Source: an uncultured Actinomycetes bacterium (GTDB lineage: Bacteria > Actinomycetota > Actinomycetes > S36-B12). Taken from it: 49,666 nt of DNA. This document shows positions 32,530 to 49,666 of the stretch, piece after piece (position 1 is the stretch's first letter; the number at the start of each line of letters is the position of its first letter). The translations under genes were made by a program, and so were the position numbers. The notes beneath the pieces are model-generated. The model ran no database searches and was not told where the DNA came from. It saw only the letters and a program-made list of their open reading frames with translations. The stretch lies in contig CAIKZY010000033.1 of NCBI GenBank assembly GCA_903832025.1, forward strand, positions 1 through 49,666. Direction: 5' to 3'.

Positions 32530-33864
32530 TCAGGTCACCGAGCGGATCAGCTTCTTGTTGATGAACTCCTCGATTCCCAGCGTGCCCAGTTCACGACCGA
32601 AACCTGAGCGCTTGGTGCCACCGAACGGCAGGTCAGGAGCATCGAGTCCCACACCATTGATGAACACCATGCCGGTATCCAGCCGGTTGGCTACCCGCAT
32701 TGCCTGCGCCTGATCGGTGGTGAACACGTATGAGCCCAAGCCGTATGGTGTGTCATTCGCGAGCCGGATGGCGTCATTCTCATCAGCGGCTCGATACACC
32801 TGCGCGACGGGGCCGAACAGTTCCTCGCGATAGACCGGATTGTCCGACGTGACCTCGGTGAGCACGCCTGCAGGGAAGAAGCAGCCCTGGCGTTCCCCGC
32901 CGGTCACCAGCTTCGCTCCTGCGGCAACAGCGCGATCCACTTGGCCTGCCAGGTTTGCCGCTGCCGCCGCAGAGGACAACGGGCTGGCTGCCGGTAGCGC
33001 CAGCATCTTGGCAGTGAACGCCTCCAGGAACGCGTCATAGAGCCCATCAATGATGATGAACCGTTTCGCGGCGTTGCATGCCTGACCGGTGTTATCGGTG
33101 CGAGCGAAGACTGCTGCGTCAACCGTTGCCTCAAGGTCATCCGTGCTCAGCAGGATGAACGGGTCAGATCCGCCGAGCTCAAGCACGACCTTCTTCAGGT
33201 GTCGACCGGCGATCTCGGCCACTGCAGCACCGGCTCGCTCGGAGCCGGTCAGGGAGACTCCACGGATACTCGGTTCGGCAATGATGTCGGCAATCTGCTC
33301 ATTGGTCGCATAGATGTTGGTGTACACCCCGTCAGGCACCCCGGCGTCGACGAAGATCTTGGCAATGGCTGCCGCCGATTCCGGACATTGGGGCGCATGC
33401 TTGAGGAGCACGGTATTGCCCAGGGCAAGATTCGGTCCGGCAAAGCGCGCCACCTGGTAGGCAGGGAAGTTCCACGGCATGATGCCAAGGATCGTTCCCA
33501 CCGATGATGGTCGAATGCAGGCCGTTCCCTCACCGTCGGCCATGGCGATGGGCTGGTCCGCCAGGAGTCGCTCGGCGTTCTCGGCGTAGTAGTCATAGAT
33601 CGCCCCGCTGAATTCGACCTCGCCGACCGCATCCGCAAGTGGCTTGCCCATCTCGCGCACGATGATCGCGCCCAGTTCCTGCGCACGCTCGATGTGCAAT
33701 TGCCCGATGCGGCGGACCACTGCCGCGCGCTCGGCAATGGACCCAGCCGCCCACGCTTCATGGGAGGCTGCGGCAGCATCTACCGCGGTTCGAATCTGGG
33801 AATCGGTCGCGGTTGGGTAGCTCTGCACCGTCTGGCCGGTGGCCGGGTCGACAACTGCGTACAT
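32530..33864 (-). CDS. NAD(P)-dependent aldehyde / succinate-semialdehyde dehydrogenase
   Basis: VLELGGSDPFILLSTDDLEATVD, NTGQACNAAKRFI, FGGTKRSGFGRELG. Confidence 0.9.
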   Translation of the reverse strand: MYAVVDPATGQTVQSYPTATDSQIRTAVDAAAASHEAWAAGSIAERAAVVRRIGQLHIERAQELGAIIVREMGKPLADAVGEVEFSGAIYDYYAENAERLLADQPIAMADGEGTACIRPSSVGTILGIMPWNFPAYQVARFAGPNLALGNTVLLKHAPQCPESAAAIAKIFVDAGVPDGVYTNIYATNEQIADIIAEPSIRGVSLTGSERAGAAVAEIAGRHLKKVVLELGGSDPFILLSTDDLEATVDAAVFARTDNTGQACNAAKRFIIIDGLYDAFLEAFTAKMLALPAASPLSSAAAAANLAGQVDRAVAAGAKLVTGGERQGCFFPAGVLTEVTSDNPVYREELFGPVAQVYRAADENDAIRLANDTPYGLGSYVFTTDQAQAMRVANRLDTGMVFINGVGLDAPDLPFGGTKRSGFGRELGTLGIEEFINKKLIRSVT

Positions 33865-34234
33865 GGGACTACCTCTCATTCATTGCTGCTACTGGCTTCG
33901 TTCTCCGGGGCGATCAAGCGCTGAAACCACTCTACGACGGTGTCGATCACACCGTGCCATGTTTGACCCATCGGCGGCCCCAACGTAGACATTCATCGAG
34001 GCCCCGCTGCCACACGTGGCGGACGGTGGCAATGCGTTGCGCTCCTAGAACCGTGGCGGGCCATACCGGCACGGGTCCTACCGGGCTATGACTTGCGCGG
34101 TGAAGTCCTGCTGGCTTGGGTCTTACCTTCGGGGCGATCGATGGGCACGGTGATGCCCGGCCCGCGTACGGGAAAGTTGACGATCGCCCAATGCTCGAAT
34201 GGTCAACGAACATTGCCTTTCACGGACAAACTGC

Positions 34235-34279
34235 TGGTGGGTCGCCCGGGGCTCGAACCCGGAACCTACGGATTAAAAG
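34235..34279 (-). other. 3' half of tRNA-Lys(UUU), candidate att (integration) remnant
   Basis: Minus strand CTTTTAA-TCCGT-AGGTT-CCGGG-TTCGAGC-CCCGG-GCGACCC-A-CCA (anticodon loop to CCA); adjacent 5' half does not fold as tRNA. Confidence 0.82.
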
Positions 34280-34369
34280 AGGATTTGGACGAAACTCCAA
34301 CACCCCAAAACGTTTGAAAACAAAGGGTTTTCGCGCATCCAGGCACACCGAGAACCGCTCAGAATGATA

Positions 34370-34391
34370 AAGAAAGGGCCAAGAAAGGGCC
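34370..34391. repeat. 11-bp direct repeat next to att remnant
   Basis: AAGAAAGGGCC x2. Confidence 0.7.
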
Positions 34392-34667
34392 ACATATTGG
34401 TTGCATTCGGTTCGCGTGGAAACCCGCCTTGCAAACGGAAAGTAATCCCAAACGGCTGCAGACGGATCGTGCGTATTGTCTCGCGCAACTTCGTCAATTG
34501 CGAGGAGTCAAGGCGTCGCATGGCACCTCAAGGATCCTGCTCCACGTGGCCGTTACTCAAAGTGCCAACCGTGACCTGCAGTGTTAATAGACTGGCGCGA
34601 GTTTGGACGGCTCAGAGGCATACCTCCTCACCCATCCGAACCGATCACGGATCAGGGGGATATTCGA

Positions 34668-36962
34668 ATGTTGAAGAAGTTCGTGAGTATCGAAAACCTG
34701 GGGCTTCTGCACGATTCTGGTAATAGCCCAACTTTCAAGAAGACCACCCTCATATTCGCCGAGAATGGTCGCGGCAAGTCCACTCTCTGTTCCTTGCTTC
34801 GATCGCTCGAATTGAACGACACGACTGAGCTGAAGAAGCGCCAAACGGTAGATCGCTCAGGAAACCCAGCCGCCCATATCGTGTTTGGCACTGGTGCCAA
34901 CGTCAGCCTCCTTCAGAACGGTGTGTGGGACCACCCTCGCCCGAATATCCGCGTCTTCGATACTGCGTTTGTACGCGCCAATGTCCACGCTGGCCCTGGT
35001 GTTCAGGCGGAGAATCGACGGAGCCTTCTCCAATTTGCTCTTGGTGACACGGCAGTCGAGGCAGCGCTGGCAGAGGTTGCAGCCAACGGGCTTGCGCGAG
35101 ATATCCGCGAACGAATCCGTCAACACGAAGCCGCGCTCTCGTCACGGCATGTAGGAATAACGCTCGACGCATTCATTGCGCTGCCGACATTCACCGACAT
35201 CGCGGGCCTGCTTCGAGAAGTCGATGCCAAGATCCGTGCTACGGAATCTGCCGCAGCAATCTTGAGGCGATCGTCACCGGAGGAGATCGCTTTACCCACA
35301 TGGGACCTCTCAGCCCTTTTCGGCCTTTTTTCACGCGATATCGAAACAGTCAGCGCATCCGCTCAGGCTCTAACCCAAGCGCACCTCACGAGAATCGGCT
35401 TGCCGAATGCGGAGGGTTGGATCCGAGAGGGCCAGGAGTTCGAGAAGGAAGCCTTGTGCCCATACTGCGGTCAGGACATCGAGCACTCAGATCTACTCGC
35501 GGCTTTCCGTGCGATCTTCACCGACGAGTACCGCCAACTCGTTGCCGACTTAGACGCGGCTGACATCTCGTATTTGGCCGCGACCTCCCCTCAGTCGCTC
35601 GAGGCGATTCAGGCGGGATTGCAGGTTCAGAACGCACGCATCTCCGCGTGGGCAGACGTCCTCGACCTTGAGCCAGTTACTGTTTCTGACGAAGACGTGA
35701 TCGCCGCTCTCTCGACACTTGACTTGACCATTCACCCGCTCATTGCGGCCAAGCGCGCAGCGCCCCTGGAAACCACGACCGTTGAAGACCTCGCTGAGGC
35801 ACGTGCGAAGGCGGAGGCCAATTGGGCCGCCGTTCGCTCAATCTTCGACAAAGTCAACGAGGAGCTGCGCGACCGCAAAACGAAGATTGCTGAATATCGG
35901 CTGAGCCTCACGGCAGCGGACATCACAGAACTCAAAGCCGAGCGGGCAGGCTTGCAACGAAGCGAATCCAGGCACCTCGCTGATGTCACTCTCGTAGTTG
36001 ACGAACTCCTGAGTGAGAGAGTCCAACTCAGAATTGCCGAGCGCGCTGCGGACGAAGCCCGCGAAGCCGTACGAGCCTTGATGAATGCGACGCTCACTCA
36101 ATATCAGAGCAAAATCAATTCGCTGCTCACCGCCTTCGGCGCAGAATTCCAGATCGAACAGATGCGCGCCAACTTCAGAGGCGAACCACCACAGTCTGAG
36201 TACCGTCTCAACCTGCGCAATACGTCAGTGCCTCTGCAACATGACGAAGGCCCCGATTTCGACTCGGCCCTGAGCGATGGCGACAAGCGGACCTTGGCGT
36301 TGGCCTTCTTCACGGCCTCGGTACTCAACGACCCGAATCTCAGTTCTCAGATTGTCGTGATCGACGACCCAATGAGCAGCTTGGATAGAAATCGCAGGGA
36401 ACATACTGCCAATCTTCTTTGCGAAATGAATGACAATTCACTGCAATTGATCGTGAGTGGGCACGACTCGCTCTTCCTCCGGCAAGTACAGCAGCAGGTC
36501 CGCCGGGCCGACTCGGCGGCCGAAATCGCCGAGATCGCGCTTCAACGTGGGGCCCATGGATACAGCAAGTGGGAACCTGTGTCTCTCGAAGAACTCTGTG
36601 AATCCGAGTGGCTTTCGAAGTATCGAGAACTCGAGACATACATCAAAGATGGAACCGGTTCACCGCGAACCGTCGCTACGCACATCCGTCCAGTGCTTGA
36701 GGGATATCTGCACAGGCGCTTCCCAAGGCACATCTCTGAAGGACTCATGCTGGGACAGGTACTCACATTGGTCCAGGAGGCAACGTCACCCAGCCCACTA
36801 GTCTTCGCCTCGGGTTCACTCGATGAACTTCGGCAAATCAACGCCTACGCGGGCAAGTTCCATCACGAGACCAATGCTGGCTTCGCTACCGCCCCGGTTG
36901 TAGACCAAGAGGTCCTCACCTACGCCCGGCGAACGATGGACGTCATCCACGGGAAACCCTAA
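34668..36962 (+). CDS. AAA_13-type zinc-hook ATPase, RloC/PrrC-like (candidate anticodon nuclease)
   Basis: Walker A FAENGRGKST, CPYCGQ zinc hook in coiled coil, SDGDKRTLALAFF signature, Walker B IVVIDDPMSSLDRNRR; C-terminal RPVLEGYL...KFHHETN. ATG 34668 with AGGGGG site. Confidence 0.75.
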   Translation: MLKKFVSIENLGLLHDSGNSPTFKKTTLIFAENGRGKSTLCSLLRSLELNDTTELKKRQTVDRSGNPAAHIVFGTGANVSLLQNGVWDHPRPNIRVFDTAFVRANVHAGPGVQAENRRSLLQFALGDTAVEAALAEVAANGLARDIRERIRQHEAALSSRHVGITLDAFIALPTFTDIAGLLREVDAKIRATESAAAILRRSSPEEIALPTWDLSALFGLFSRDIETVSASAQALTQAHLTRIGLPNAEGWIREGQEFEKEALCPYCGQDIEHSDLLAAFRAIFTDEYRQLVADLDAADISYLAATSPQSLEAIQAGLQVQNARISAWADVLDLEPVTVSDEDVIAALSTLDLTIHPLIAAKRAAPLETTTVEDLAEARAKAEANWAAVRSIFDKVNEELRDRKTKIAEYRLSLTAADITELKAERAGLQRSESRHLADVTLVVDELLSERVQLRIAERAADEAREAVRALMNATLTQYQSKINSLLTAFGAEFQIEQMRANFRGEPPQSEYRLNLRNTSVPLQHDEGPDFDSALSDGDKRTLALAFFTASVLNDPNLSSQIVVIDDPMSSLDRNRREHTANLLCEMNDNSLQLIVSGHDSLFLRQVQQQVRRADSAAEIAEIALQRGAHGYSKWEPVSLEELCESEWLSKYRELETYIKDGTGSPRTVATHIRPVLEGYLHRRFPRHISEGLMLGQVLTLVQEATSPSPLVFASGSLDELRQINAYAGKFHHETNAGFATAPVVDQEVLTYARRTMDVIHGKP

Positions 36963-37154
36963 GGTCCGAAACTGGACAACAGCGCAGGTCCCGCATTTCA
37001 CAAACCGCCTGAAATACAAGGGTCTTGGTGGACCCGCACGAGAGCAACTGCTGGCCCTAGGTTGGTTTTCCAGGTTGGAACCTGCGACATCCCAAGTTGG
37101 CAGGCCATCGTTGTCTTACCAGCCAGGTGCAATTTCGACCCGCCTTGTTGCTCT

Positions 37155-38630
37155 CTACTCGGCGTCGGGTCCGACGAGTGCTTCGGCAATAGCCGCGAAC
37201 TCATTCAGCGCGGCCTGCAGTTCCTCGACGATCTCCTGAGCAATGACCTCGGGCGCCGGGAGGTCTTCAGCGTCTTCAAATGAGTTGTCCTTCAGCCAGA
37301 TGATGTCGAGGTTCGCCTTATCCCGCGCCATGATTTCGTCGTATGTGAAGGATTTGAATCTCTCGGACTCCACGCGTTTGTGTTGCTTGCCTGGCTTGTA
37401 GACATCCACGAAATTCTGAAGATGCTCTCGGCGCAATGGGTTCTGCTTCATCGTGAAGTGCTCATTCGTGCGGAAGTCATACACCCACAGAGTCCGCGTC
37501 CATGGTGCTTCGGCTGCAGGCTTCTTGTCGAAGAACAGCACATTTGCTTTCACGCCGCCGGCATAGAAGATTCCCGTCGGGAGTCGAAGAAGGGTGTGAA
37601 CATTGAACTCTCGAAGGAGTCGGCGCCGAAGAGTCTCCCCGGCTCCTCCTTCGAATAGAACGTTGTCCGGCAGGACAACTGCAGCTCTACCATTGATGTC
37701 CAGAATCGTCTTGATATGTTGTAAGAAGTTCAACTGTTTGTTGCTTGTTGTCACCCAGAAGTCGTCTCGGACAATCTCAAGATTGCTCCTCGACTCACGT
37801 CCATCGGCGCCGATCATCGTCACGCTGGACTTAGTGCCGAACGGTGGATTAGCAAGCACCACGGAATATCGAGTGCCAGGATCGGCCGTGAGCGCATCCT
37901 TCACATCAATCAGACTTTCTCCGTCGGCGGTGCCGATCCCGTGAAGCAGCATGTTCATCGACGCCAACCGGGCAGTTCCATCCACTAACTCAACACCGTG
38001 AACGAAGGTGTCCCGCAGGTGCGCGCGCTGATCGGGAGCAAGGTTCTCAACATCCCGCGTCGCGTGCTCATATGCAACGAGCAGGAATCCACCTGTCCCG
38101 CACGCCGGGTCACACACAGTGTCCTCAACACTCGGACGTACGACATCGACGATGGCGTGAATCAACGAGCGAGGAGTGAAGTACTGGCCAGCACCGGACT
38201 TGATGTCCTCAGCGCCCTTCTGCAGCAACTCCTCATATGCATCGCCTTTGAGATCCACTCCAGACGCAGACCAATTCTCCTTATCAATCAGATCAACGAT
38301 CAGCCGCTTAAGTTTCGCCGGGTCTTGAATTTTGTTCTGAGCCTTACGAAAGATGACCCCGAGGGTTCCCTTGGAACGCCCGAGGCTTTCAAGGATGTAG
38401 CGGTAGGTCTTCTCAAGTTCCTCCCCATCCGCATCCAGTAATCGCTGCCAAGAACAATCAGCGGGAACGATGTGCTCGGGATTCAGGGAACGTGTCTCAC
38501 GCTCATGCGCCATTTTCAAGAACAGGAGATACGTGAGTTGCTCGGTGTAATCGATAGTAGACACCCCGTCGTCACGAAGGACGTTGCAGTACGACCACAG
38601 TTTCTCCACAAGCCTTCTCGATTCATACAT
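37155..38630 (-). CDS. hsdM: Type I restriction-modification, DNA methylase subunit
   Basis: GQYFTPRSLIHAIVDVV, VCDPACGTGGFLL, VVLANPPFGTKS. Confidence 0.95.
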   Translation of the reverse strand: MYESRRLVEKLWSYCNVLRDDGVSTIDYTEQLTYLLFLKMAHERETRSLNPEHIVPADCSWQRLLDADGEELEKTYRYILESLGRSKGTLGVIFRKAQNKIQDPAKLKRLIVDLIDKENWSASGVDLKGDAYEELLQKGAEDIKSGAGQYFTPRSLIHAIVDVVRPSVEDTVCDPACGTGGFLLVAYEHATRDVENLAPDQRAHLRDTFVHGVELVDGTARLASMNMLLHGIGTADGESLIDVKDALTADPGTRYSVVLANPPFGTKSSVTMIGADGRESRSNLEIVRDDFWVTTSNKQLNFLQHIKTILDINGRAAVVLPDNVLFEGGAGETLRRRLLREFNVHTLLRLPTGIFYAGGVKANVLFFDKKPAAEAPWTRTLWVYDFRTNEHFTMKQNPLRREHLQNFVDVYKPGKQHKRVESERFKSFTYDEIMARDKANLDIIWLKDNSFEDAEDLPAPEVIAQEIVEELQAALNEFAAIAEALVGPDAE

Positions 38631-39858
38631 CGGAGTGTTCCGGTGCCTTCCTTGTCAACTCACCTGAAAATGCTGCCTGGAGGAGCGAGCGGCGAAGACC
38701 GTGCGATTTTGCTTCTGCCCGAGCAAGTTCATCCTCCATCCTCATTCGAAACTGTGTGATTGTCGATGTCTTGAATAGAAGCTGCTCGCGAAGTGTTTCC
38801 TGTGGTATCGGCACTTGAATGGCCTTGATCAAACCCAAATTCAAGTTCGGTTGCACCCCACCTGCAGCTAGTGTTCGAAGGGCGAAGTAGTTAACTCTAA
38901 GTACAAGATGCACCCAATCTTTGAGCGACGCGTATCGATCCAAGAAAGTTATAGCCGCGCATGCCTGATTGGTAGTGGCAGGGACACCGAGTTCAGCCAC
39001 AGTACCCCGCGTTTTCCCCTCGCCATACATTGCAACGAGCAAGGACCCCGCAGGGAGCATTTTGATCGAAGTTTCGCTCAATGCAGATTCGGTCACGTAT
39101 TGCTTCGGCAGAGTTACCAACCCCTGCCCAAGTTCACCACTAGTTATCCAAGGGATATTCCCACCTGTGTAATATCCCCGGTTCGACTTGAGTGGTGTAG
39201 CACCACTGGTCACGCGGCCAAGGTCCGCGATAGTCAACGAAGTTGACCCGGGATCTTTGGTAGCTAGTCTGACTGCAGACTCAATAGAGGAACGCTCAAG
39301 CGCTATCAATTGAATGCGCGTCCGGGCTAAGGCGCTGTCAGCGGAGTTCAGTCGGCTGACTTGGTCGTCGAGAATGCCGACAATGCGCAGCTGCTCATCG
39401 AGCGGCGGTAAAGGTACTTCCTGCTTGAGGATTCCATCAGCCTTGGCACGAGTATGACTTCCTGTTACCCCCGTGACCTCCGAAACTATCCACTCTCTAA
39501 AGCGAGGGCTGGATAGAAAATATTGGAGATACATCGATGACACGGCTGACTTGTCGCGCGCGCGCAGAACGAGCCACTCCGGCGACGCTATCCGCGGCAG
39601 ACCGCTCTCCCTCTCAGTCACTCGCCACACTCGATTGATTCTCGGGTTTATTTTGCACACAAGCACGTCATCGACTTCCACCGACAATTTGGCGCTTCCA
39701 ATATCCTGGCCAGCCGCGATCTCAGGGCATCCCTCAGCAAATGAAGGAACACTCCACAGCTCATATGTGACACCTGATTGAGGACTTATTGAATCCCGAA
39801 CTGAAACACCAAGTTCACTCAAAGGGACCAAATCCCAGCCTTCTTGCAACTCACTCAT
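38623..39858 (-). CDS. hsdS: Type I restriction-modification, specificity subunit
   Basis: Two TRD-like halves with PLPPLDEQLRIVGILDDQVSRLNSADS and VPIPQETLREQLLF conserved regions; overlaps hsdM by 8 bp. Confidence 0.92.
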   Translation of the reverse strand: MSELQEGWDLVPLSELGVSVRDSISPQSGVTYELWSVPSFAEGCPEIAAGQDIGSAKLSVEVDDVLVCKINPRINRVWRVTERESGLPRIASPEWLVLRARDKSAVSSMYLQYFLSSPRFREWIVSEVTGVTGSHTRAKADGILKQEVPLPPLDEQLRIVGILDDQVSRLNSADSALARTRIQLIALERSSIESAVRLATKDPGSTSLTIADLGRVTSGATPLKSNRGYYTGGNIPWITSGELGQGLVTLPKQYVTESALSETSIKMLPAGSLLVAMYGEGKTRGTVAELGVPATTNQACAAITFLDRYASLKDWVHLVLRVNYFALRTLAAGGVQPNLNLGLIKAIQVPIPQETLREQLLFKTSTITQFRMRMEDELARAEAKSHGLRRSLLQAAFSGELTRKAPEHSDV

Positions 39859-42620
39859 GCCGTAAGTCCTTGCTGTAGCCCGTCGAGCACCGACGCCACT
39901 CCCGCGCCGAGGTCACGGACGGCCCCGTCTGTGCCGCCGCGCTCAGTGAAGGGTGGAAGTTCGAGATCGGTGGTGTTGAAGTCACCCGATTGAATTACTA
40001 CGTCCTTGATGCGTTCGAGCCACCATATTTCGGTGTCTGTGAACTCGATTCCCGCTAGTGCCTGCTGTGCAAGCCAGTTACTCCAGCGTTGCTCGATGGT
40101 GCTGGCGTATGGGATGAGCTCGTTGTCGTAGCCAAGGGCGAACCGGATGAGTCCGACGAGGTCGGTCGTAGTATGGCGAGCTGAACGCTGCACTCTTCCT
40201 TCGTCGATGGCTTCGTACGCATGCCAGAGGCTGTCAACGGTCCACCTGTAGGGCGGGCGTTGGATGCGTTCGGCGAGGTCGCGCAGTTCGCCATAGGCAA
40301 CTTTCAGCACTTTGGGTTGGGAGTAGACGGTCTCGATCGCGGAGATTTCATCGCGATGTTCGTCGAGGAAAGCCCGCCACGAGGTGACCGTTTCCCGGGC
40401 CTTGTCTCGATCGACATGACCAGAGGCTTCTATGAGCGTGTCTTTGGAAGCTTCGTCGATGAGGAGGTCGTGCGCTGTTCTGAGTTCAAGGAGTCGCTGC
40501 CGTAAGGGCGCGTTACCAGCGATGGGTTCAATGGCCTTCTGGACGAGAGCGCTCATTGCTGCGGCCTCATCTGGCTTTCCGCTCTTCATCGGCGCGACAG
40601 CAATTGCTTTGGCGATCACGTCGGGGTCAGTGACCGTGATCAGGGAAGCGATCACTGCGGTGAACGGTTGGCCTGCGACTTGGTTAATCTCGGCGCGCTC
40701 GGCGGGGGTGAGCTGACGCTCCAGTCGTGCAAGTCGCGAAGCCAGCGTCGATGTTTCCTCGGAGGTGATCGTGAAAGTCGCTGCTTTGTCGAGAAGTTTC
40801 TTCAGGCTGATGATGCGATCGCGTTGCAGAGGTGGATCGACAAAGGCGTGCTCCGTGACACCTACTGCGTCAACGATGACAAACCTGTCCTTGGATAGCG
40901 CGTCAGGGGTCATCGTTTGAAAGGTGGCACTGTCGATAGTGCGAGCGCCACGCCCTTTCATCTGCTCGAAGTAGGAAGCCGACCGGACATCGCGCATGAA
41001 GAACACGCACTCAATTGGTTTTACGTCAGTACCGGTGGCGATCATGTCGACGGTGACAGCGAATCGAAGTGTCGAGGAGTTACGGAACTGCTGAAGCAGA
41101 GCCTTAGGATCTTTGGCGTTATAGGTGATCTTGGCTGCGAAATCGTTGCCTTTGCCGAAGACCTCCTTGATCTGAGTGACGATCTCCTCGGCGTGGTTAT
41201 CGTCCTTGGCAAATACGAGGGTCTTTGGAACAACTGACCGGCCGGGAAATATTTCAGTAAACAGTCGGTCCTTGAACGCGGTCAGCACGGTGCGGATCTG
41301 GTCTTTGCTCATCACTTTGCGATCAAGTTCGCTGGAGCCGTAAAGCACATCTTCGTCGAGAGCTTCATATCGCTGCCGGCGGGTGCGCTTATCCATCACC
41401 GGGACCACGATGCCCGCCTCAATAGTCGAGCCACCCTCAGTAATCTCAGTTTTGATGCGGTAGATATCGAAATCTACGTTCACGCCATCGGCTACAGATT
41501 CCGTGTAGGTGTATTCGGCGACAAGGTTCTGATTGAAGAAGGCGAACGTCTGCTTCATCGGGGTAGCCGTCAATCCGACGACATGAGCATCGAAGTACTC
41601 GATCACCCCCCTCCACAATCCATAAATGGATCGGTGGCATTCATCAACGATCACCAGGTCGAAAGCCTCAGGTGGCAGCAAAGGGTTGTACTGAATTTCC
41701 ACAGGTGAATCCGGTGTGAATTCATCGATGTTTGGGTCTTCCGTGTCCGGAACCTCCTGACCTTTCAATACTGACCAGACGCGCTGGATAGTGGAGATAA
41801 CGACCTTGCTCGACCCAAGAGTGCCTGCTGAGGTGAGCTTGTCCACGTTATACAAATCGGTGAATTTCCGGCCATCATCCGGGGTGGTCCAGTCCCTGAA
41901 CTCGCGCAGTGTTTGGTCAGCCAAATTGTTGCGATCAACGAGAAACAGCACGCGGTTCACTCCACCGAATTTCAGGAGTCGGTAGCACTCGGCCACAGCC
42001 ATGCGGGTTTTCCCAGCACCCGTGGCCATCTGCACGAGCGAACGCAGCTTGCCACTCGCCATTGAGGCTTCAACTGCCTTCACGGATCGCTCCGATGCTG
42101 GGCGAAGGTCATAGTCATCCAGCGGTGGCATTCGACGAACCTTGGCACGCCACGTTGCCGCTTCAGGATCCGTTTCCGCATCACGAATGAAACGAGCAAG
42201 AGTTTCCGGTCGAGGGAATGCGAAGACCCGCCGCGATGCCGAGTCAGGGTCAAAGAGGTTCGTGAAGACAGTCTCTGAACCACTTGCCTCAAACAGAAAC
42301 GGAAGTCTTCCTTCGACGAGAACTGCTCCCAAGCGCATCTGCGGGGGAAGTCCTTCGGCGTATCGAGAGGTTTGCCACTGCACGCCCGTCAGTGGAGTTC
42401 CCTCAGGTTTGGCTTCGATGACTCCGACGACGCGCCGTTTGACGTACAAGAGATAGTCCGCCCGACCGGCGTCCCCGAGCGTGACTTCTCGAACGGCGAC
42501 GCCCTCGTGATTCACTAGGTCCACGGCGTCCTGGTTGCAGACGAACCAGCCGGACTCTTCAAGCTGTCGATCAATCGTCAGTCGGGCAGACGCCTCCGGC
42601 GTCAATCCCCCAGGCGTCAT
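39855..42620 (-). CDS. hsdR: Type I restriction-modification, restriction/translocase subunit
   Basis: Nuclease motif GRADYLLYVKRRVVGVIEAKPEG, helicase MATGAGKTRMAV, VIVDECHRSIYGLWRGV. Confidence 0.95.
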   Translation of the reverse strand: MTPGGLTPEASARLTIDRQLEESGWFVCNQDAVDLVNHEGVAVREVTLGDAGRADYLLYVKRRVVGVIEAKPEGTPLTGVQWQTSRYAEGLPPQMRLGAVLVEGRLPFLFEASGSETVFTNLFDPDSASRRVFAFPRPETLARFIRDAETDPEAATWRAKVRRMPPLDDYDLRPASERSVKAVEASMASGKLRSLVQMATGAGKTRMAVAECYRLLKFGGVNRVLFLVDRNNLADQTLREFRDWTTPDDGRKFTDLYNVDKLTSAGTLGSSKVVISTIQRVWSVLKGQEVPDTEDPNIDEFTPDSPVEIQYNPLLPPEAFDLVIVDECHRSIYGLWRGVIEYFDAHVVGLTATPMKQTFAFFNQNLVAEYTYTESVADGVNVDFDIYRIKTEITEGGSTIEAGIVVPVMDKRTRRQRYEALDEDVLYGSSELDRKVMSKDQIRTVLTAFKDRLFTEIFPGRSVVPKTLVFAKDDNHAEEIVTQIKEVFGKGNDFAAKITYNAKDPKALLQQFRNSSTLRFAVTVDMIATGTDVKPIECVFFMRDVRSASYFEQMKGRGARTIDSATFQTMTPDALSKDRFVIVDAVGVTEHAFVDPPLQRDRIISLKKLLDKAATFTITSEETSTLASRLARLERQLTPAERAEINQVAGQPFTAVIASLITVTDPDVIAKAIAVAPMKSGKPDEAAAMSALVQKAIEPIAGNAPLRQRLLELRTAHDLLIDEASKDTLIEASGHVDRDKARETVTSWRAFLDEHRDEISAIETVYSQPKVLKVAYGELRDLAERIQRPPYRWTVDSLWHAYEAIDEGRVQRSARHTTTDLVGLIRFALGYDNELIPYASTIEQRWSNWLAQQALAGIEFTDTEIWWLERIKDVVIQSGDFNTTDLELPPFTERGGTDGAVRDLGAGVASVLDGLQQGLTA

Positions 42621-42907
42621 ACACCCCCCAAACTGCCGTTAAATGCCTTAGGTTAACGGCTTGGACTTCCACAGTAGGGAGGGATGGCTCCGAATAACTG
42701 CCCGTGTTCACAGAGTCGCGTGATATCGAGAGATACAAGACTTGAAGGGTGGCTTTTCTATGCTGAATGGAAGACGCCCGAGTGGTCTTTCTTGATGGCC
42801 GAAATTGACAATCCGTCGAATCCCGAGAGGTCTGGCAGACCTCAAGTTTCAGACGCGACCCAATCCCAACAGACGTAGGTGCCAAGCCCCTATTTCGTGA
42901 CTATTTC

Positions 42908-43037
42908 TTATCCACAGGGTATTTCGGATTTCTACGCTCACCGAGGGTCAACTCTTAGGTGGCCGTCCACAGACGGCTCCACATGTATCCCCACAAATCT
43001 TGAGGTTTTGTACAGGTTATCCACAAAGATATCCACA
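42908..43037. promoter_or_regulatory. Cluster of DnaA-box-like sites
   Basis: Perfect TTATCCACA at 42908-42916 and 43017-43025; near matches CCGTCCACA (42963-42971) and ATATCCACA (43029-43037). Confidence 0.6.
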
Positions 43038-43084
43038 GGATTAGTTGCACTCGTGTAATTCGCTGCCTAGCCTCAGTAATGAAC

Positions 43085-43130
43085 GAACCCCGCTCGAAAT
43101 CCGACGGGGGTCGAGTATCGAGCGGGGTTC
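43085..43130. repeat. 13-bp-arm inverted repeat
   Basis: GAACCCCGCTCGA (43085-43097) / TCGAGCGGGGTTC (43118-43130), 20-nt loop. Confidence 0.8.
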
Positions 43131-43239
43131 ACGAATTTGCCGGGAAGCAAGACGTGAATCTACATCGGCCTACGAGCCGATGGCGCCAATTGGCAGGTCG
43201 AACTCGCGTTCGGATGCCCACGGGCAGAAGGGCCACGTC

Positions 43240-43407
43240 ATGGCCAAGTCGAATAAGCCGGGAACCCCGGCACCAGCCAGCGGACAGTACAAACCCAGCG
43301 GCGGTGGTAAGACTGAGATCACAGCGATCCAGGGCAAGCCGCTTCCACCTACCCCCAAGCCGGGACAATCGTGGAATTTGGTCGACCCGACTAAGCACAA
43401 GAAGTAG
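43240..43407 (+). CDS. Small YjzC-like protein
   Basis: MAKSNKPGTPAPASGQYKPSGGGKTEITAIQGKPLPPTPKPGQSWNLVDPTKHKK; resembles the PASGQY...PLPPTPKPGQ...LVDPTKHK pattern of YjzC-like proteins. Confidence 0.65.
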   Translation: MAKSNKPGTPAPASGQYKPSGGGKTEITAIQGKPLPPTPKPGQSWNLVDPTKHKK

Positions 43408-43411
43408 GAAG

Positions 43412-43451
43412 TGCCAGGGGTGGGATGCGGCTGCTTGTCCCACCCCTGGCA
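43412..43451. terminator. Hairpin terminator after YjzC-like gene
   Basis: TGCCAGGGGTGGGA...TCCCACCCCTGGCA, 14-bp perfect arms. Confidence 0.75.
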
Positions 43452-43499
43452 TCCCTGTCTTATAGAGCAACTGTCAAGTCGTCCTGACCAGCGAATCTG

Positions 43500-44282
43500 T
43501 TGAAGTCCATGAATCACCCACGACCTAAGCGCACAAAATGCGTGTTCTGCGGCGGAACGCGAATGAGTAAAGAGCACGTATACCCAAGATGGCTTCGTAC
43601 AAACTTTGGTGAAGTTGAGAGTGTCACGACACTAATGCAAGTAGCGGATGGCCCCATCAAGCGAGGTGCCCCTGAAGTTCCGTTTGATGCCACCGTTCAG
43701 TCCGTGTGTCAAGTTTGCAACAACGGGTGGATGTCGCGCTTAGAGCTCGATGTTCAGCCGCTGGTAACTTCGATGCTCCGCATGGTGGAACTCAAACTCG
43801 CAATTCACGAGCGGCGCTCGTTAGCGGCATGGATATTCAAGACGGTTCTCATGCTGCAGGAACAAGTTCGCGCTGAAGTACCGCTAATTCCTCAATCGCA
43901 TTACTCGCAACTTTTCATGCAACACGAGCCGCCAAGCGCCGCAAGAATATGGCTATGTTCGTTGGATGAACCGCTTTCGGCCGACCTCGTAGTTGTCCGA
44001 AGTTTCGGCCAAAGATTGATGTATTCCGGTGAGAGTTTCCGCGGAATGGAACAGGGTGTCCTGTTTTACGGCTATTCCATTTCGCTGGGTCCGCTTATGA
44101 CCTGCATACTCGGGAACACCCAAGGCTCATTTGTGCCGAATCGGGCCATGGCTCTAATCGGTGAGCCTATGGCCTCGCTGTGGCCACTCGCCGAGTCGAA
44201 GGATCTTGTGTGGCCGCCGAAATCCACTGTCAGCAAGTTGGGTGGCTTCAATGGTGTACATAGCCTGATGTTCATGCAATGA
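43500..44282 (+). CDS. HNH-like zinc-finger protein, function unknown
   Basis: CVFCGGTRMSKEHVYPRWL...CQVCNNGWMSRLE: paired CxxC with EHV..P and C..CN.gW, as in HNH endonuclease-like proteins. Confidence 0.6.
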   Translation: MKSMNHPRPKRTKCVFCGGTRMSKEHVYPRWLRTNFGEVESVTTLMQVADGPIKRGAPEVPFDATVQSVCQVCNNGWMSRLELDVQPLVTSMLRMVELKLAIHERRSLAAWIFKTVLMLQEQVRAEVPLIPQSHYSQLFMQHEPPSAARIWLCSLDEPLSADLVVVRSFGQRLMYSGESFRGMEQGVLFYGYSISLGPLMTCILGNTQGSFVPNRAMALIGEPMASLWPLAESKDLVWPPKSTVSKLGGFNGVHSLMFMQ

Positions 44283-44532
44283 ATGGAGCAGCGCTCGTAG
44301 GGCGTGAGAGGAATCTCTGTAGTTGCGAGGTACCGAGGCCGCCGCACCGTTAACTACGCATGACTCGAATTTTGCGTCGAATACCAATCGTCCAAGAAGT
44401 AGGACTCACTCCAAGACCACCATCACATTTCACAGGCCAAGAACCCAAAACTAGAACTCAAGCCAACCCAGACGAATCAAGACCATTCAAACAAGGCACG
44501 ACCCACTCACGGACTGAAATCATCTATCCGGC

Positions 44533-47500
44533 TTGGAATCCGGATTCTCCGGCGTCGTCGTGAGTACGCATGCGAAGGTCACGACGATCGCACACACTGC
44601 CGCGGGGATGGGCCAGGTTTGGTACCGGGTAACCGGGCAGGTTGGGGTGGTCAGTGTTCAGGTCGCTTACCGATCTGGGATCTCGACCGCGAGCGTTCGT
44701 CGGGTGCGGTTTGTCGGTGCGGGTGGGACCGCTGATCTGTTGGGGTTCCGGCCAGGTGAGCTCGTGATCACGGAGGCTGACCTTGCGTTGATCGAGCGGT
44801 CCTTCAGTGGTGACCATCTTTCGCATGGGGTGAAGACGCAAAGGTCGAAGCTTGCTCGGGTTCCTGCCGGGCCGATCCGTGATGTTGTCGTCGCCGCACT
44901 TGCCCGCGCGGGCATGGAGCCCGAGCAGGTCTTCACTTCGCGGGACGCGTGCAACTGGTGGCAGGCAATCGACCGGGCCGGTGAACGCAATCGGTCGGTG
45001 TCGTTCCTCTCAGCAGCCGGGGCGCTTAGGGTTTTGGCCCGGGCCGGAGCGGAGGTCGCAGCGGACGAGTTGTATGCAGTCTTGGGCGAGCACGTTCGTT
45101 CGGTTGCAGCGGGCCCGGTGGATGCGCGTCGTCGCCGAGACGCGGTCACTTCGCTGCTGTCCTCGGACGATTTCCTGGCAACCGCCTGCAACGCCGATCT
45201 GGGCGAACAGCTCTGGACGGCGGCCGGGGCCGCCGCGGGCAAGCATGACCCGGTTGGCAATGCAGGCTATGAGGTGACGTTGACGCTGCCGAAGTCGATC
45301 TCGCTGTTTGCCATTTCCGGGGACACTGCAGATGCGGAAGCGTGGTTTGACGTGATGGAAGCCGGAGCGACTCGAGCGCTGGAGGCACTCATGGCTGAAG
45401 CGGGCTTCTGCTCGACAGGTCACCGCGGCGATGGCGAAGACGTAAACATCATGCCCGCAGATGGATGGGCCGGGTTCATCGCGACGGAGATCTCCTCTCG
45501 GGCGGGAGACCCACACTTGCACGTGCACTGCACCTTGCCCAACGTCTTGGTCGGTCGCGATGGGCTGGTGCGGACAATGGCCGATGGCGGACGCGAGCTG
45601 ATCGTGAACGCTTCGCGGTTCGCCGCGTGGGGTCAGGCATTCGTGATCGACGAAGCCAAGCAGCGAGGGCTCATTGACGGAGCCTGGTTCGATCCGGTCT
45701 CGTGGCAGTGGCAGGTCGGTGGATTCAGTGACGACACCATCACGGCATTCAGTCGCGGGCGCCAAGGCGTGCTGGCAGAACTTGACGAATCCGAGGATGA
45801 GCAGGCGACCACCGCGCGGTCCAGATCGAAGCGCGATCGCGCAGCCAAGTCCCGAGTGACCGCAGCGAAAGCTAGCGAGCAGCCGTCATGGACGCAGATG
45901 TGCGCGACGATCGCCGCCCGCGCGGCAGGACTCGGCCTGGACATCGAAGCTGAGCGCGCTGGCAACGGAATGGAGTTCACACAACCTGCGCAGTGGGATG
46001 ACGCCACCTGGGTCGCATGCGTACTGCAAGTCGCATGCGAGCATGACTCAACTGCGTCCTTGGCGAAGATCCGTGCCCTGGTCGACCTGGCCGGAGCCGA
46101 ACTACCAGCAGAAGAGCGGCTGCGGATCACGCGCATGGTTCTGGATCAGGGATTCGTCCGCGGCCACGAATCACGAGACCTGGGCATGAAGACTGGCGGG
46201 CAAAGGTGGATCTCTGGCCAGGCCCTCGCGGCAGAACAGTGGCTGCTCGACACCTTCGAACAGCAGTGTGTAGTCCCGGCTCCCAAAGATTTCTCCAGTC
46301 GGACCGTCACAGGATTACGTGCGACTTCGTCCTCAAATGGGTGGCTGCTCAGCACGGAGCAGGCCCACGCCGTCTCCGCAATCGTTGACGGCCTTGCACC
46401 CATCACGCTGATCTCAGGCGTCGCTGGGTCCGGTAAGACCACGGTTCTCAAGGCCGCACGCATCGCGCTGTCGTCGACCCACTCACGGATGCTCGTTGCA
46501 TCAACGGCGACGCTGGCGGCATCCACAGCCGGACACGAATCTGGAGCCAGCTGGTCAAACTTGGCTGCCCTGCGACGCGACATTGAAGTGGGCAAGCCGC
46601 CTCGCGCACGAGTGATCGTCATCGACGAAGCGTCCATGGCCGACGTCGTCTCGGTTGCCCGCGTCGCGCGCTGGTGCATCGAGAACAACAAGCGGCTGGT
46701 GCTACAAGGCGATCCGGCCCAACTTGGTGCCGTCGCTGCGGGTGATGCGTTCAGTGTGTTGTGCCAGCGGTTCCCCGACCAGGTCGTCCACTTGACGACG
46801 AACCAGCGGCAGCGCACGGACGACGGGCAAGTCATCGCCGCCGCGCTGCATACAGGCGATATCGATGCAGCCTGGGCAAGGCTTACCGCAACTGGCTCGG
46901 TCGTTGTCGCTCGGCACCGAGAGCACAAGCTCGATCTGGTCGCTGATCTGGTCGTCGAGCAGGCTGGTGTACACGGTGCAGATTCAGTCACGTGTGATGC
47001 GGTCACCAATGCCGAAGTGGGCGAACTCAACACGCGCATCCACGACAAGTTGATTGCATCCGGTCAGATCGATCCTGCGACCGTACTCACATATCGGAAC
47101 GCCTCTGGCGATACGAAGATCGGGGCTGGGACTGCTCTGCGGGTTACAAAGCCGACACCCGGCAAGGACAGCGGCCGTCTGGTGCGTGGTGATCGAGTCA
47201 CTGTTGTGGATACCGGACACGATCGTGTCCGTCTGCGATTCGATGATGGTCGCGAGCAGTCCATGACTCCGCGGAGGCTGCTCGCGCATTTCGACTATGG
47301 CTACGCCGGAACCACCCACAAGGTGCAAGGCCAGACCAGTGCCGTACACATCGGATCACTGGACCGCAACAAGAACCGCTCCAGTCTCTACGTCACCGCC
47401 ACACGCGGACGCGATCGGACGATCCTGGTCGCCGATGCCCGCGACTGGCTAAAGCAAGCAGAGATGGCCCAAGCCCTCAACTGGAGCACGGGTCAACTAG

Positions 47501-47640
47501 ATGACGAAGTCCTCGAACGAGTTCAGGCGCATCTCACAGGCAGGACCGAGTCGATCGACTCACCTGGTCAGGCCCTCACTCCGCTGCGTATGGGGATTGT
47601 CCAGCCCATCTCTAGACCGGGGTTCGGGCTGGCTGGATGA
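44533..47640 (+). CDS. MobF (TraA/TrwC-type) conjugative relaxase-helicase
   Basis: TrwC relaxase motifs LPKSISLFA and DPHLHVHCTLPN, then helicase ISGVAGSGKTTVLKAA, VIDEASMADV, YAGTTHKVQGQT; exact start uncertain. Confidence 0.88.
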   Translation: MESGFSGVVVSTHAKVTTIAHTAAGMGQVWYRVTGQVGVVSVQVAYRSGISTASVRRVRFVGAGGTADLLGFRPGELVITEADLALIERSFSGDHLSHGVKTQRSKLARVPAGPIRDVVVAALARAGMEPEQVFTSRDACNWWQAIDRAGERNRSVSFLSAAGALRVLARAGAEVAADELYAVLGEHVRSVAAGPVDARRRRDAVTSLLSSDDFLATACNADLGEQLWTAAGAAAGKHDPVGNAGYEVTLTLPKSISLFAISGDTADAEAWFDVMEAGATRALEALMAEAGFCSTGHRGDGEDVNIMPADGWAGFIATEISSRAGDPHLHVHCTLPNVLVGRDGLVRTMADGGRELIVNASRFAAWGQAFVIDEAKQRGLIDGAWFDPVSWQWQVGGFSDDTITAFSRGRQGVLAELDESEDEQATTARSRSKRDRAAKSRVTAAKASEQPSWTQMCATIAARAAGLGLDIEAERAGNGMEFTQPAQWDDATWVACVLQVACEHDSTASLAKIRALVDLAGAELPAEERLRITRMVLDQGFVRGHESRDLGMKTGGQRWISGQALAAEQWLLDTFEQQCVVPAPKDFSSRTVTGLRATSSSNGWLLSTEQAHAVSAIVDGLAPITLISGVAGSGKTTVLKAARIALSSTHSRMLVASTATLAASTAGHESGASWSNLAALRRDIEVGKPPRARVIVIDEASMADVVSVARVARWCIENNKRLVLQGDPAQLGAVAAGDAFSVLCQRFPDQVVHLTTNQRQRTDDGQVIAAALHTGDIDAAWARLTATGSVVVARHREHKLDLVADLVVEQAGVHGADSVTCDAVTNAEVGELNTRIHDKLIASGQIDPATVLTYRNASGDTKIGAGTALRVTKPTPGKDSGRLVRGDRVTVVDTGHDRVRLRFDDGREQSMTPRRLLAHFDYGYAGTTHKVQGQTSAVHIGSLDRNKNRSSLYVTATRGRDRTILVADARDWLKQAEMAQALNWSTGQLDDEVLERVQAHLTGRTESIDSPGQALTPLRMGIVQPISRPGFGLAG

Positions 47641-47787
47641 AATCGCTGGAGTCCGACATAGCCAATGTTGCCTGCGCCTACCCGGCGTCTATGACGATTA
47701 CCTGGGCTTGATCTCTTCACCACAACGGAGCCCAAAACTGCCCACTGAGGTGATGGAAGCCGGTCTGGAAGCTTGGCGATCTGAGCG

Positions 47788-48486
47788 CTATCCATGGAGC
47801 ATCAACATGTGGCGGGCGCCCACCTGGAATTCATAGGGGACGGCGACGACCTCGGTTGTGATGCCGCACTCGTTGTGAAGTCTGGTTCGAAGGTTTGACA
47901 GGAACTCGACTGGCTCTCCGGTTCCTTGGAGTACGAGCGGGAAGACCCGGACTTCTTCGGCTACCCGGCACAGTTCCACGAGCGCTGCGAGGTGCCATTG
48001 CTCGTCTAGCTGCGTGGCCCACGTAAACAGCAGGTGCGAGCACAACGCAAGATCGAACGCTGCATTCGCGAAGGGCAGTTCGGGAAGGGCTGCGGCGATG
48101 TATCGGTCGGGATAGGTGTGGTGGTGCTCCTGAAACGTGACCAGGGCCGCTCGGCGTATCTCGGCACGACGTTGTGGAGTTTGATACCAGTCGAAGACGA
48201 ACCGATCGGAGTTGGCATCAATCATCGAGTTGCCACTGGGTACTCCTGCTTTCGCACGATCGGCAAGGGCTTCTGGGGCGAGGGCATAGACCGGGTCCAC
48301 GGCAACGGCATCCGTACCTCGTGCATGCGCTTCGGCCACGAAACTCGAAGCACCGGCAGAGCAGTCCAGAATGCGGGCAGGGAGCGCCTGCGCGTCTAGG
48401 TCAAAGAATGCGACGTATTCCGCGAATGATCTTGAGCTCACCAGGATGTCGTCGGTCTTATTCGAATCACTTCGAGATGTATCCAT
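47788..48486 (-). CDS. Class I SAM-dependent methyltransferase-like protein
   Basis: RILDCSAGASSFVAEAHARGTDAVAVDP, LPFANAAFDLALCSHLLF; start MDTSRSD at 48486 preceded by AAGGGA site. Confidence 0.78.
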   Translation of the reverse strand: MDTSRSDSNKTDDILVSSRSFAEYVAFFDLDAQALPARILDCSAGASSFVAEAHARGTDAVAVDPVYALAPEALADRAKAGVPSGNSMIDANSDRFVFDWYQTPQRRAEIRRAALVTFQEHHHTYPDRYIAAALPELPFANAAFDLALCSHLLFTWATQLDEQWHLAALVELCRVAEEVRVFPLVLQGTGEPVEFLSNLRTRLHNECGITTEVVAVPYEFQVGARHMLMLHG

Positions 48487-48502
48487 TTGGAGTCCCTTCG
48501 TT

Positions 48503-49543
48503 CTAGTAGACAGTTCGCATTGCTTCACGGACTTCTGTCAGGGTGTTTTCTGCCACATGATTTGCGACTTCGTTTCCTCGCTTGAGGACTTCATGCACGA
48601 GACCTTCGTGGACTGCCAACTGTTGTCGCCGCTTCCTCAATGGGCCCAGGAATTCGTTGACGGCCATCGCAGTCACATTTTTCAGTTCGCTACTTCCGCC
48701 ATCACCGACGTCGTCGGCGACCTGCGTCGGCTCCAGTCCCAGGCATAACGCCGCCGTTGACAACAGTGCCGAAACACCGGGCCTTCTTTCGGGATCGAAC
48801 GTGATGCGCCTTTCTTGATCCGTTTGAGTCTGACGAATTACGGCAACCGTTTCATCAGCGGTCATCGACAGAGCGATGGTGTTTCCGTAGCTCTTCGACA
48901 TCTTGCGTCCATCGAGCCCCGGGACCTCTGGTGATGAAGTGATCAGTGCATCTGGGATCGGGAAGACCTCCCCGTATCGTGCGTTGAATCGTCGGGCGAT
49001 CACCCTCGTCATCTCCACGTGGGGAAGATTGTCTTTCCCAACAGGAACTAGGTTGCCCTTGCAGAACAAGATGTCAGCCGCCTGGTGGACCGGATAAGTC
49101 AGTAGCAGCCCACTCAACGCACGACCGGACGCGGCGAGTTCTGCTTTCACCGTGGGATTGCGATGCAACTCCGCTTCAGTGACCAGACTGAGGAACGGCA
49201 GCATCAACTGGTTCAGCGCCGGCACAGACGAGTGCGTGAAGATCGTCGTCTGATCCAGGTCCATGCCCGCTGCTAGATAGTCGAGGACAGCCCCATACAC
49301 ATTCTCGCGAACGTGAGCGGTGGTGTCTCGGTCCGTGATGACTTGGTAGTCCGCCAGCACGAGGAAGGTTTCGACTCCGAGCTGCTGTAGTCGCAGCCGC
49401 TCCCGGATGCTTCCGAAGTAATGCCCCAGGTGCAGCGGACCGGTCGGCCGCTCACCGGTGAGCACTCGGAAGTGTTCAGGGTGTTGGGACGCAGCTGCCG
49501 CGACTGCATCCGAACGCAGCGCGGTTGTGGCGAAGGATTCCAT
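48503..49543 (-). CDS. trpS: Tryptophanyl-tRNA synthetase (candidate auxiliary/inducible)
   Basis: GERPTGPLHLGHYFGSI (HIGH-like), GRKMSKSYGNTI (KMSKS), HQAADILFCKGNLVPVGKDNLPHVEMTR. Confidence 0.93.
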   Translation of the reverse strand: MESFATTALRSDAVAAAASQHPEHFRVLTGERPTGPLHLGHYFGSIRERLRLQQLGVETFLVLADYQVITDRDTTAHVRENVYGAVLDYLAAGMDLDQTTIFTHSSVPALNQLMLPFLSLVTEAELHRNPTVKAELAASGRALSGLLLTYPVHQAADILFCKGNLVPVGKDNLPHVEMTRVIARRFNARYGEVFPIPDALITSSPEVPGLDGRKMSKSYGNTIALSMTADETVAVIRQTQTDQERRITFDPERRPGVSALLSTAALCLGLEPTQVADDVGDGGSSELKNVTAMAVNEFLGPLRKRRQQLAVHEGLVHEVLKRGNEVANHVAENTLTEVREAMRTVY

Positions 49544-49588
49544 TCGTGTCTCCCCATCAATTGGGAGCTACACGGAGTTCTCGAGACG

Positions 49589-49617
49589 GTTCACGAGCTG
49601 CCGTGCAGCCCGTGAAC
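49589..49617 (-). terminator. Attenuator terminator hairpin (3:4 stem) upstream of trpS
   Basis: Plus strand GTTCACGAGCTGC-CGT-GCAGCCCGTGAAC (one mismatch). Confidence 0.75.
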
Positions 49618-49633
49618 ATGCTTCAACCGGCTG

Positions 49634-49666
49634 CTATCGCAGCCACCACCAAGCGGAACGGTTGAA
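49634..49666 (-). CDS. trp leader peptide, C-terminal part (...FNRSAWWWLR*)
   Basis: Minus strand TTC AAC CGT TCC GCT TGG TGG TGG CTG CGA TAG, three consecutive Trp codons followed by stop; start lies outside window. Confidence 0.8.
   Translation of the reverse strand, partial: FNRSAWWWLR

Follow-up and report, generated by a model that had tools for sequence, protein, structure and literature searches.

A displaced 3′ half of tRNA-Lys(UUU) marks one end of a probable integrative mobilizable element in an uncultured actinobacterium

Among the genomic islands that occupy tRNA genes, those catalogued by Islander include an anticodon-centred "A" class of crossover sites (PMC4383910), and for the Mx8 and SSV integrases the reading frame runs into the tRNA itself (PMC4383910). 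Fragments of tRNA genes can arise in different ways (PMC9897764). Of the accessory genes relevant to the locus described here, RloC is characterised by a published triad Arg-X3-Glu-X36-52-His (PMC2610378), and auxiliary tryptophanyl-tRNA synthetases (TrpRSs) can confer indolmycin resistance (reviewed in PMC6804068). The locus lies in the genome of a freshwater-type actinobacterium (G000; 2.21 Mb in 187 contigs), probably in or near the Nanopelagicales, a lineage known mostly from metagenome-assembled genomes. Here it is interpreted, with high confidence, as attR of an integrative mobilizable element that a tyrosine integrase inserted into the only tRNA-Lys(UUU) gene, within its 3′ half.

The window, that is the whole stretch of DNA analysed, is the entire 49,666-nt contig C33 of G000. 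Its minus strand from 34279 to 34235 reads CTTTTAATCCGTAGGTTCCGGGTTCGAGCCCCGGGCGACCCACCA, which comprises the anticodon loop CTTTTAA, the 3′ anticodon stem, the variable region, the T-arm, the 3′ acceptor strand and CCA, beginning exactly with the first loop base and running to the CCA. These parts and coordinates are exactly those given in the initial annotation, which had named a 3′ half of tRNA-Lys(UUU), and all 45 of the 45 bases are those of the intact tRNA-Lys(UUU) of G001 and G002, both of the same genus as G000. Because none of 100 first-order Markov versions of the window matched this 45-mer at more than 27 positions, against the 45 observed, a chance origin is excluded. The claim that the preceding sequence cannot form the 5′ half was borne out, since the stretch that lies 5′ of it (TTTCGTCCAAATCCT) contains no tRNA 5′ half and ARAGORN called no tRNA gene in the whole window. 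A search of Rfam at E≤1 did not report the fragment, presumably since that model requires more sequence than half a tRNA offers. The initial annotation had further seen no intact tRNA-Lys or integrase in the window and had predicted that the other end would lie past 49666; C33 stops at that position, so the other end could not show in the window, and an intact tRNA-Lys was found on contig C67. The features of the window are as follows.

32530 to 33879, minus strand: aldehyde dehydrogenase gene, chromosomal flank beyond the junction (Pfam Aldedh 6e-125)
34235 to 34279, minus strand: attR, displaced 3′ half of tRNA-Lys(UUU), with the chromosomal allele (T-stem CCGGG/CCCGG; 45/45 to two congeners)
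34262 to 34279, minus strand: 18-bp core CTTTTAATCCGTAGGTTC, common to attL, attR and attB (from the attR/attL alignment)
34280 to 49666, no strand: probable integrated element, the part held by C33, with the remainder on C67 and in unassembled sequence
34370 to 34392, minus strand: putative integrase arm-type site, tandem TGGCCCTTTCTT-GGCCCTTTCTT, with the same motif near attL (L003:2102) and at both G021 ends
34668 to 36962, plus strand: RloC-like AAA_13/ABC ATPase (Pfam AAA_13 4e-40; PADLOC PDC-S06 3e-57, PrrC 1e-7)
37155 to 38630, minus strand: hsdM, type I DNA methyltransferase (Pfam N6_Mtase, HsdM_N; MTase_I 2e-188; 84% DNA identity to G021)
38623 to 39858, minus strand: hsdS, type I specificity subunit, diverged from that of G021 (Pfam Methylase_S)
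39855 to 42620, minus strand: hsdR, type I restriction subunit (Pfam ResIII, EcoEI_R_C; 86% DNA identity to G021)
44533 to 47640, plus strand: MobF-type relaxase-helicase (Pfam TrwC 8.5e-22, AAA_30; NCBIfam MobF 8e-23, below the curated cut-off)
47788 to 48528, minus strand: class I SAM methyltransferase-like gene, overlapping trpS (Pfam Methyltransf_11 3e-4)
48503 to 49543, minus strand: trpS, auxiliary tryptophanyl-tRNA synthetase, TrpRS II-like (NCBIfam trpS 4e-69)

The only intact tRNA-Lys(UUU) in G000 is on C67 (L003:1955-2029, plus strand), a contig of 5609 bp, and it is the sole other close match to the fragment in this genome. Directly 3′ of it, and convergent with it, is a tyrosine integrase gene (L003:1973-3541, minus strand) that is 89% identical to its counterpart in G021, a genome of the same family and another genus; the G021 copy matches Phage_integrase at 6.5e-8. 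The integrase gene is followed by an excisionase-family gene (NCBIfam TIGR01764 excise, 29.9 bits against a cut-off of 28.8), another small HTH-like gene and then a two-gene pair, which reads like a DUF1778/acetyltransferase toxin-antitoxin and gave no match in NCBIfam. This arrangement, with the integrase, the excisionase and the intact tRNA-Lys together in L003:1955-5609, is the attL expected for an island that has the window fragment as attR, and the intact tRNA-Lys(UUU) with an adjoining integrase, which the initial annotation had sought outside the window, is thus present on C67. On the 5′ side of the tRNA, L003:721-1244 carries a gene for a YefM-like antitoxin (NCBIfam) and a probable YoeB-like partner, and this stretch is unmatched in the congeners' flank.

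A whole homologous element is present on a single contig of G021, where an intact tRNA-Lys (C2:11788-11863) and a 3′ fragment (C2:43897-43940) are 32.1 kb apart; the element is at least 19 kb long in G000 (15.4 kb in the window and 3.6 kb on C67). From the integrase end, the counterpart of C67 (88.6% DNA identity across 3.5 kb) is followed by AbiEi-like, GrpB, DJ-1/PfpI, citrate synthase-like and DUF2332 genes, then by homologues of trpS and its neighbouring methyltransferase gene, three metabolic genes, the relaxase, hsdR, hsdS and hsdM, and last by candidate defence genes (PADLOC PDC-S65 and PDC-S11) and the element end. The attR-side end is 90% identical to window positions 34226-34413 (188 bp, the fragment and the adjoining element end). 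This gene order indicates that trpS and the relaxase belong to the element and that a single element is divided between C33 and C67, the joining of the two G000 ends, which lie on separate contigs, resting on G021. When the missing middle was sought in G000 with G021:C2:15000-20000, C67 was the sole match. The initial annotation had placed the element at higher coordinates than the fragment, and it is there that the GC content drops, from about 0.64 to 0.54-0.57 on the right of the junction, and that the genes match those of the complete G021 element in order.

On the chromosomal side, the aldehyde dehydrogenase gene of the window has 80% and 76% DNA identity to the genes beside the intact tRNA-Lys in G001 and G002, respectively, where it is oriented as in the window and lies 0.9 kb (G001) or 4.4 kb (G002) from the tRNA. 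No match to the element was found between the two genes in either congener, and this locus is read as the empty site; a comparison with related genomes lacking the island, as the initial annotation had proposed, thus found the site uninterrupted in both. Neither of the observations it had named as contrary, a fragment without an element to its right or an intact tRNA-Lys without an integrase, was made. The aldehyde dehydrogenase gene is the only window gene in the stretches of G001 and G002 fetched on that side of the tRNA, and window positions 20-34 kb match G002:C1 in blocks with order mostly, and strand, kept. The chromosomal flank 5′ of the tRNA-Lys on C67 does not match G001, and the flank on the other side of the G001 tRNA-Lys matches G000 contig C6, which falls short of C67 and leaves this side of the site less fully covered.

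Two further observations concern the history of the site. The 42 bp on the chromosomal side of the fragment (34193-34234) are similar to the flank of attL in G021, as though the site had once been occupied by an earlier, related element. Extra partial tRNA-Lys-like matches occur near the longer match on the same contig in G031:C109, G010:C4 and G033:C41, which suggests that tRNA-Lys may be a hotspot where integration has left tandem arrays or relics in relatives.

The first seven bases of the 18-bp core, which are the anticodon loop, are likely to be the overlap region. Past the core, attL and attR differ at two mutually compensating positions in the T-stem, which is CGGGG/CCCCG in the C67 tRNA and CCGGG/CCCGG in the fragment, the two having 91% identity overall. 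The expectation that the intact tRNA would have an identical 3′ end of about 45 bp was thus only partly upheld, in that the 3′ ends match and strict identity fails at the two T-stem positions, the shared core being 18 bp. Since the tRNA-Lys of the congeners has the T-stem of the fragment, attR bears the chromosomal allele, whereas the regenerated C67 tRNA has its 3′ half from the element, and the allele difference places the crossover within the 18-bp core, the first base of which is also that of the anticodon loop. The alleles of G021 are reversed relative to those of G000, and G108 and G110, of the same genus as G021, share the allele of its attR, again as would be expected for a chromosomal attR allele. 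On the minus strand of the window the left flank of the element reads ...GTCCAAATCCT, followed by the core. The element-side flank TTTCGTCCAAATCCT is identical in the attR of G000 and G021, and when TTTCGTCCAAATCCT was extended by CTTTTAATCCG and at most two mismatches were allowed, it was found only in these two among 167 genomes of the order. A direct-repeat motif, tandem TGGCCCTTTCTT-(T)-GGCCCTTTCTT, lies about 70-115 bp inside each of the four ends in the two genomes, and these motifs may be the integrase arm sites.

In both elements the integrase frame runs across the core into the tRNA; in G000 it crosses the core at L003:1973-2168 and stops inside the host tRNA, and in the excised circle it would enter the other arm. 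Substitutions at the three codon positions number 16/15/20 in codons 441-503, against 27/20/182 before them. Because they are spread so evenly, the tail before the tRNA (the last ~60 codons) is probably not functional protein, and the idea that integration alters the C-terminus of the integrase, as it does in phage Mx8, was rejected. A related integrase in a Candidatus Nanopelagicales MAG is 64% identical, and it is on this match that G000 is placed, probably, in or near that order; plasmid and phage records gave only distant integrase matches (25-28%), and a scan of viral contigs with the element end gave no match. The four closest integrases within the order (G000, G021, G100 and G101) all adjoin tRNA-Lys(UUU) and the more distant ones are beside tRNA-Thr(CGT) or have tRNA-Phe(GAA) nearby, so that site choice tracks integrase lineage. 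A second, more distant member of the family in G000 itself (C73:5394-6752), near tRNA-Phe(GAA), likely belongs to a second element.

Much of the cargo in the window is a type I restriction-modification (R-M) locus. The comparison of hsdM and hsdR with G021 showed a strong third-position bias; hsdS found no match in G021 by blastn and had 52% identity in a forced alignment, and it has thus been exchanged. The slot next to attR holds the RloC-like gene in G000 and other candidate defence genes in G021, the complete element of which lacks the RloC-like gene. This gene has one partial relative in the order, and its protein matched no solved structure by sequence. The protein contains a Walker A motif (AENGRGKS, residue 30), a CPYC (CxxC) zinc hook (263) between Walker A and the signature, the signature LSDGD (534) and Walker B (VVIDDP, 562), and it offers two C-terminal candidates for the triad, R673-X3-E677-X53-H731 and R686-X3-E690-X40-H731, where the published spacing is X36-52. 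The gene at 34668-36962 probably serves in defence as an anticodon nuclease, in a cargo slot whose content varies. As PrrC cuts tRNA-Lys, a connection of the RloC-like gene with the tRNA-Lys site was considered; it was rejected, since G021 has the site without the gene and integration leaves the anticodon loop unchanged; the presence of the gene at this site is probably a coincidence.

The putative relaxase has a homologue at the matching place in G021 and 25-28% identity to plasmid MobF proteins, its assignment being based on the TrwC and MobF matches. Among the scanned larger ORFs of the complete G021 element there was no VirB4/VirD4/FtsK-type match. With an integrase, an excisionase and a MobF-type relaxase, and with no conjugation apparatus recognised in the complete G021 copy, the element looks like an integrative mobilizable element.

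The fragment might instead be the relic of an old element, the sequence now to its right being an unrelated insertion or plain chromosome, and both the other tRNA-Lys 3′ fragments near tRNA-Lys in relatives (e.g. G031:C109 and G010:C4) and the likeness of 34193-34234 to the G021 attL flank would suit such a history. However, the 188 bp spanning the junction are 90% identical to the G021 attR, the genes to the right match the very G021 element that holds the integrase of C67, and the arm motif is at the right distance on both sides, so that a relic is very unlikely. Since tRNA gene fragments do not all have one origin (PMC9897764), a partial duplication of tRNA-Lys, made without an integrase, also has to be considered. 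It is already refuted by the complete G021 element; the adjacent GC shift, integrase, excisionase, arm motifs, empty site and complete homologue all fit integration, as does a fragment that starts exactly at the anticodon loop, where one known class of crossovers falls (PMC4383910), and a duplication is given almost no credence. The reading as attR of an integrated element is preferred, and the G021 homologue, the empty site and the C67 attL agree with the initial proposal that integration into a tRNA 3′ end left the remnant at the distal junction.

How far this element extends to the right depends on trpS, which could be an ordinary chromosomal gene if the element ended before 47.8 kb. No trpS other than the window copy was found in the G000 assembly, but its G021 homologue (C2:22643-23683, at the matching place) is inside the element, and G021 has a second, normal trpS elsewhere (348 bits). 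The window copy scores 233 bits against at least 308 in all other relatives searched, and its product is only about 33% identical to the TrpRS of G001 and G002. Moreover, G000 contig C148 (L076), which carries the upstream neighbour of the chromosomal trpS (reference G001:C25, L067), stops about 180 bp short of trpS, and the chromosomal gene was probably lost in an assembly gap. A chromosomal origin of the window copy is thus extremely unlikely, and replacement of the chromosomal trpS by the element copy is unsupported, given where C148 ends. In the integrated element, trpS and the overlapping methyltransferase gene are conserved together with G021 (88% and 87% DNA identity, respectively); substitutions in trpS show a third-position bias (14/13/95), and its product is under purifying selection. 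The GERPTG...HLGH and KMSKS motifs are kept, and the nearest solved structures include TrpRS II (2a4m), these TrpRS II entries being from Deinococcus. That this TrpRS is functional, inhibitor-insensitive and the only one of the host, which would make the mobile element essential, seems very unlikely.

In the mechanism proposed, the tyrosine integrase would recombine the element into tRNA-Lys(UUU) at the anticodon loop. As the sequences show, the element's own tRNA 3′ half completed the tRNA-Lys again at the integrase end (attL, C67), while the chromosomal 3′ half was displaced to the far end (attR, 34235-34279), beside the aldehyde dehydrogenase gene. The integrase may bind the arm sites (tandem GGCCCTTTCTT) of each end and, with the neighbouring excisionase-like protein, may excise a circle, which the MobF relaxase could render mobilisable by conjugation functions provided in trans; the element is thus predicted to be mobile. 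Most of its cargo concerns phage defence (a type I R-M locus whose specificity subunit, hsdS, can be exchanged, and the variable slot at the attR end), together with the auxiliary TrpRS that it bears. Both ends, the core, the arm sites, an empty site and a complete relative have been mapped precisely, and the exchanged T-stem alleles show cleanly, in a natural case, that elements of this kind substitute their own sequence for half of a host tRNA. The mode of insertion is well known, and nothing here overturns what is known of tRNA-targeting elements; the instance is new and is resolved in unusual detail.

Compared with described systems, the RloC-like protein shares with RloC and PrrC (PMC2610378) the ABC motifs, the CxxC zinc hook, a candidate C-terminal R-X3-E...H and a place beside a type I R-M locus, and differs from RloC in that its Glu-to-His spacing is 53 for one candidate pair, one outside the published range, and 40, inside it, for the other. 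The TrpRS resembles auxiliary TrpRS II-type enzymes in its nearest structures, in its two motifs and, in G021, in being a second enzyme beside a normal TrpRS; unlike them, the window copy is borne by an integrative element and lies beside a methyltransferase gene. With integrative mobilizable elements the locus has in common an integrase, an excisionase and a relaxase, no conjugation apparatus being found in the complete G021 copy, although its relaxase is only remotely related to the MobF proteins of plasmids. As with Mx8 and SSV (PMC4383910), the integrase frame enters the tRNA, but here the last ~60 codons are without coding bias. The element also resembles Islander tDNA islands (PMC4383910): an intact tRNA gene, the island and a displaced, co-oriented downstream 3′ fragment (on one contig in G021, on C67 and C33 in G000), a tyrosine integrase inside the island by the regenerated tRNA, a length within 2-200 kb, a crossover at the anticodon loop and an uninterrupted site in G001 and G002. 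From these islands the element differs in nothing essential, and here the T-stem allele difference allows the crossover to be mapped from sequence.
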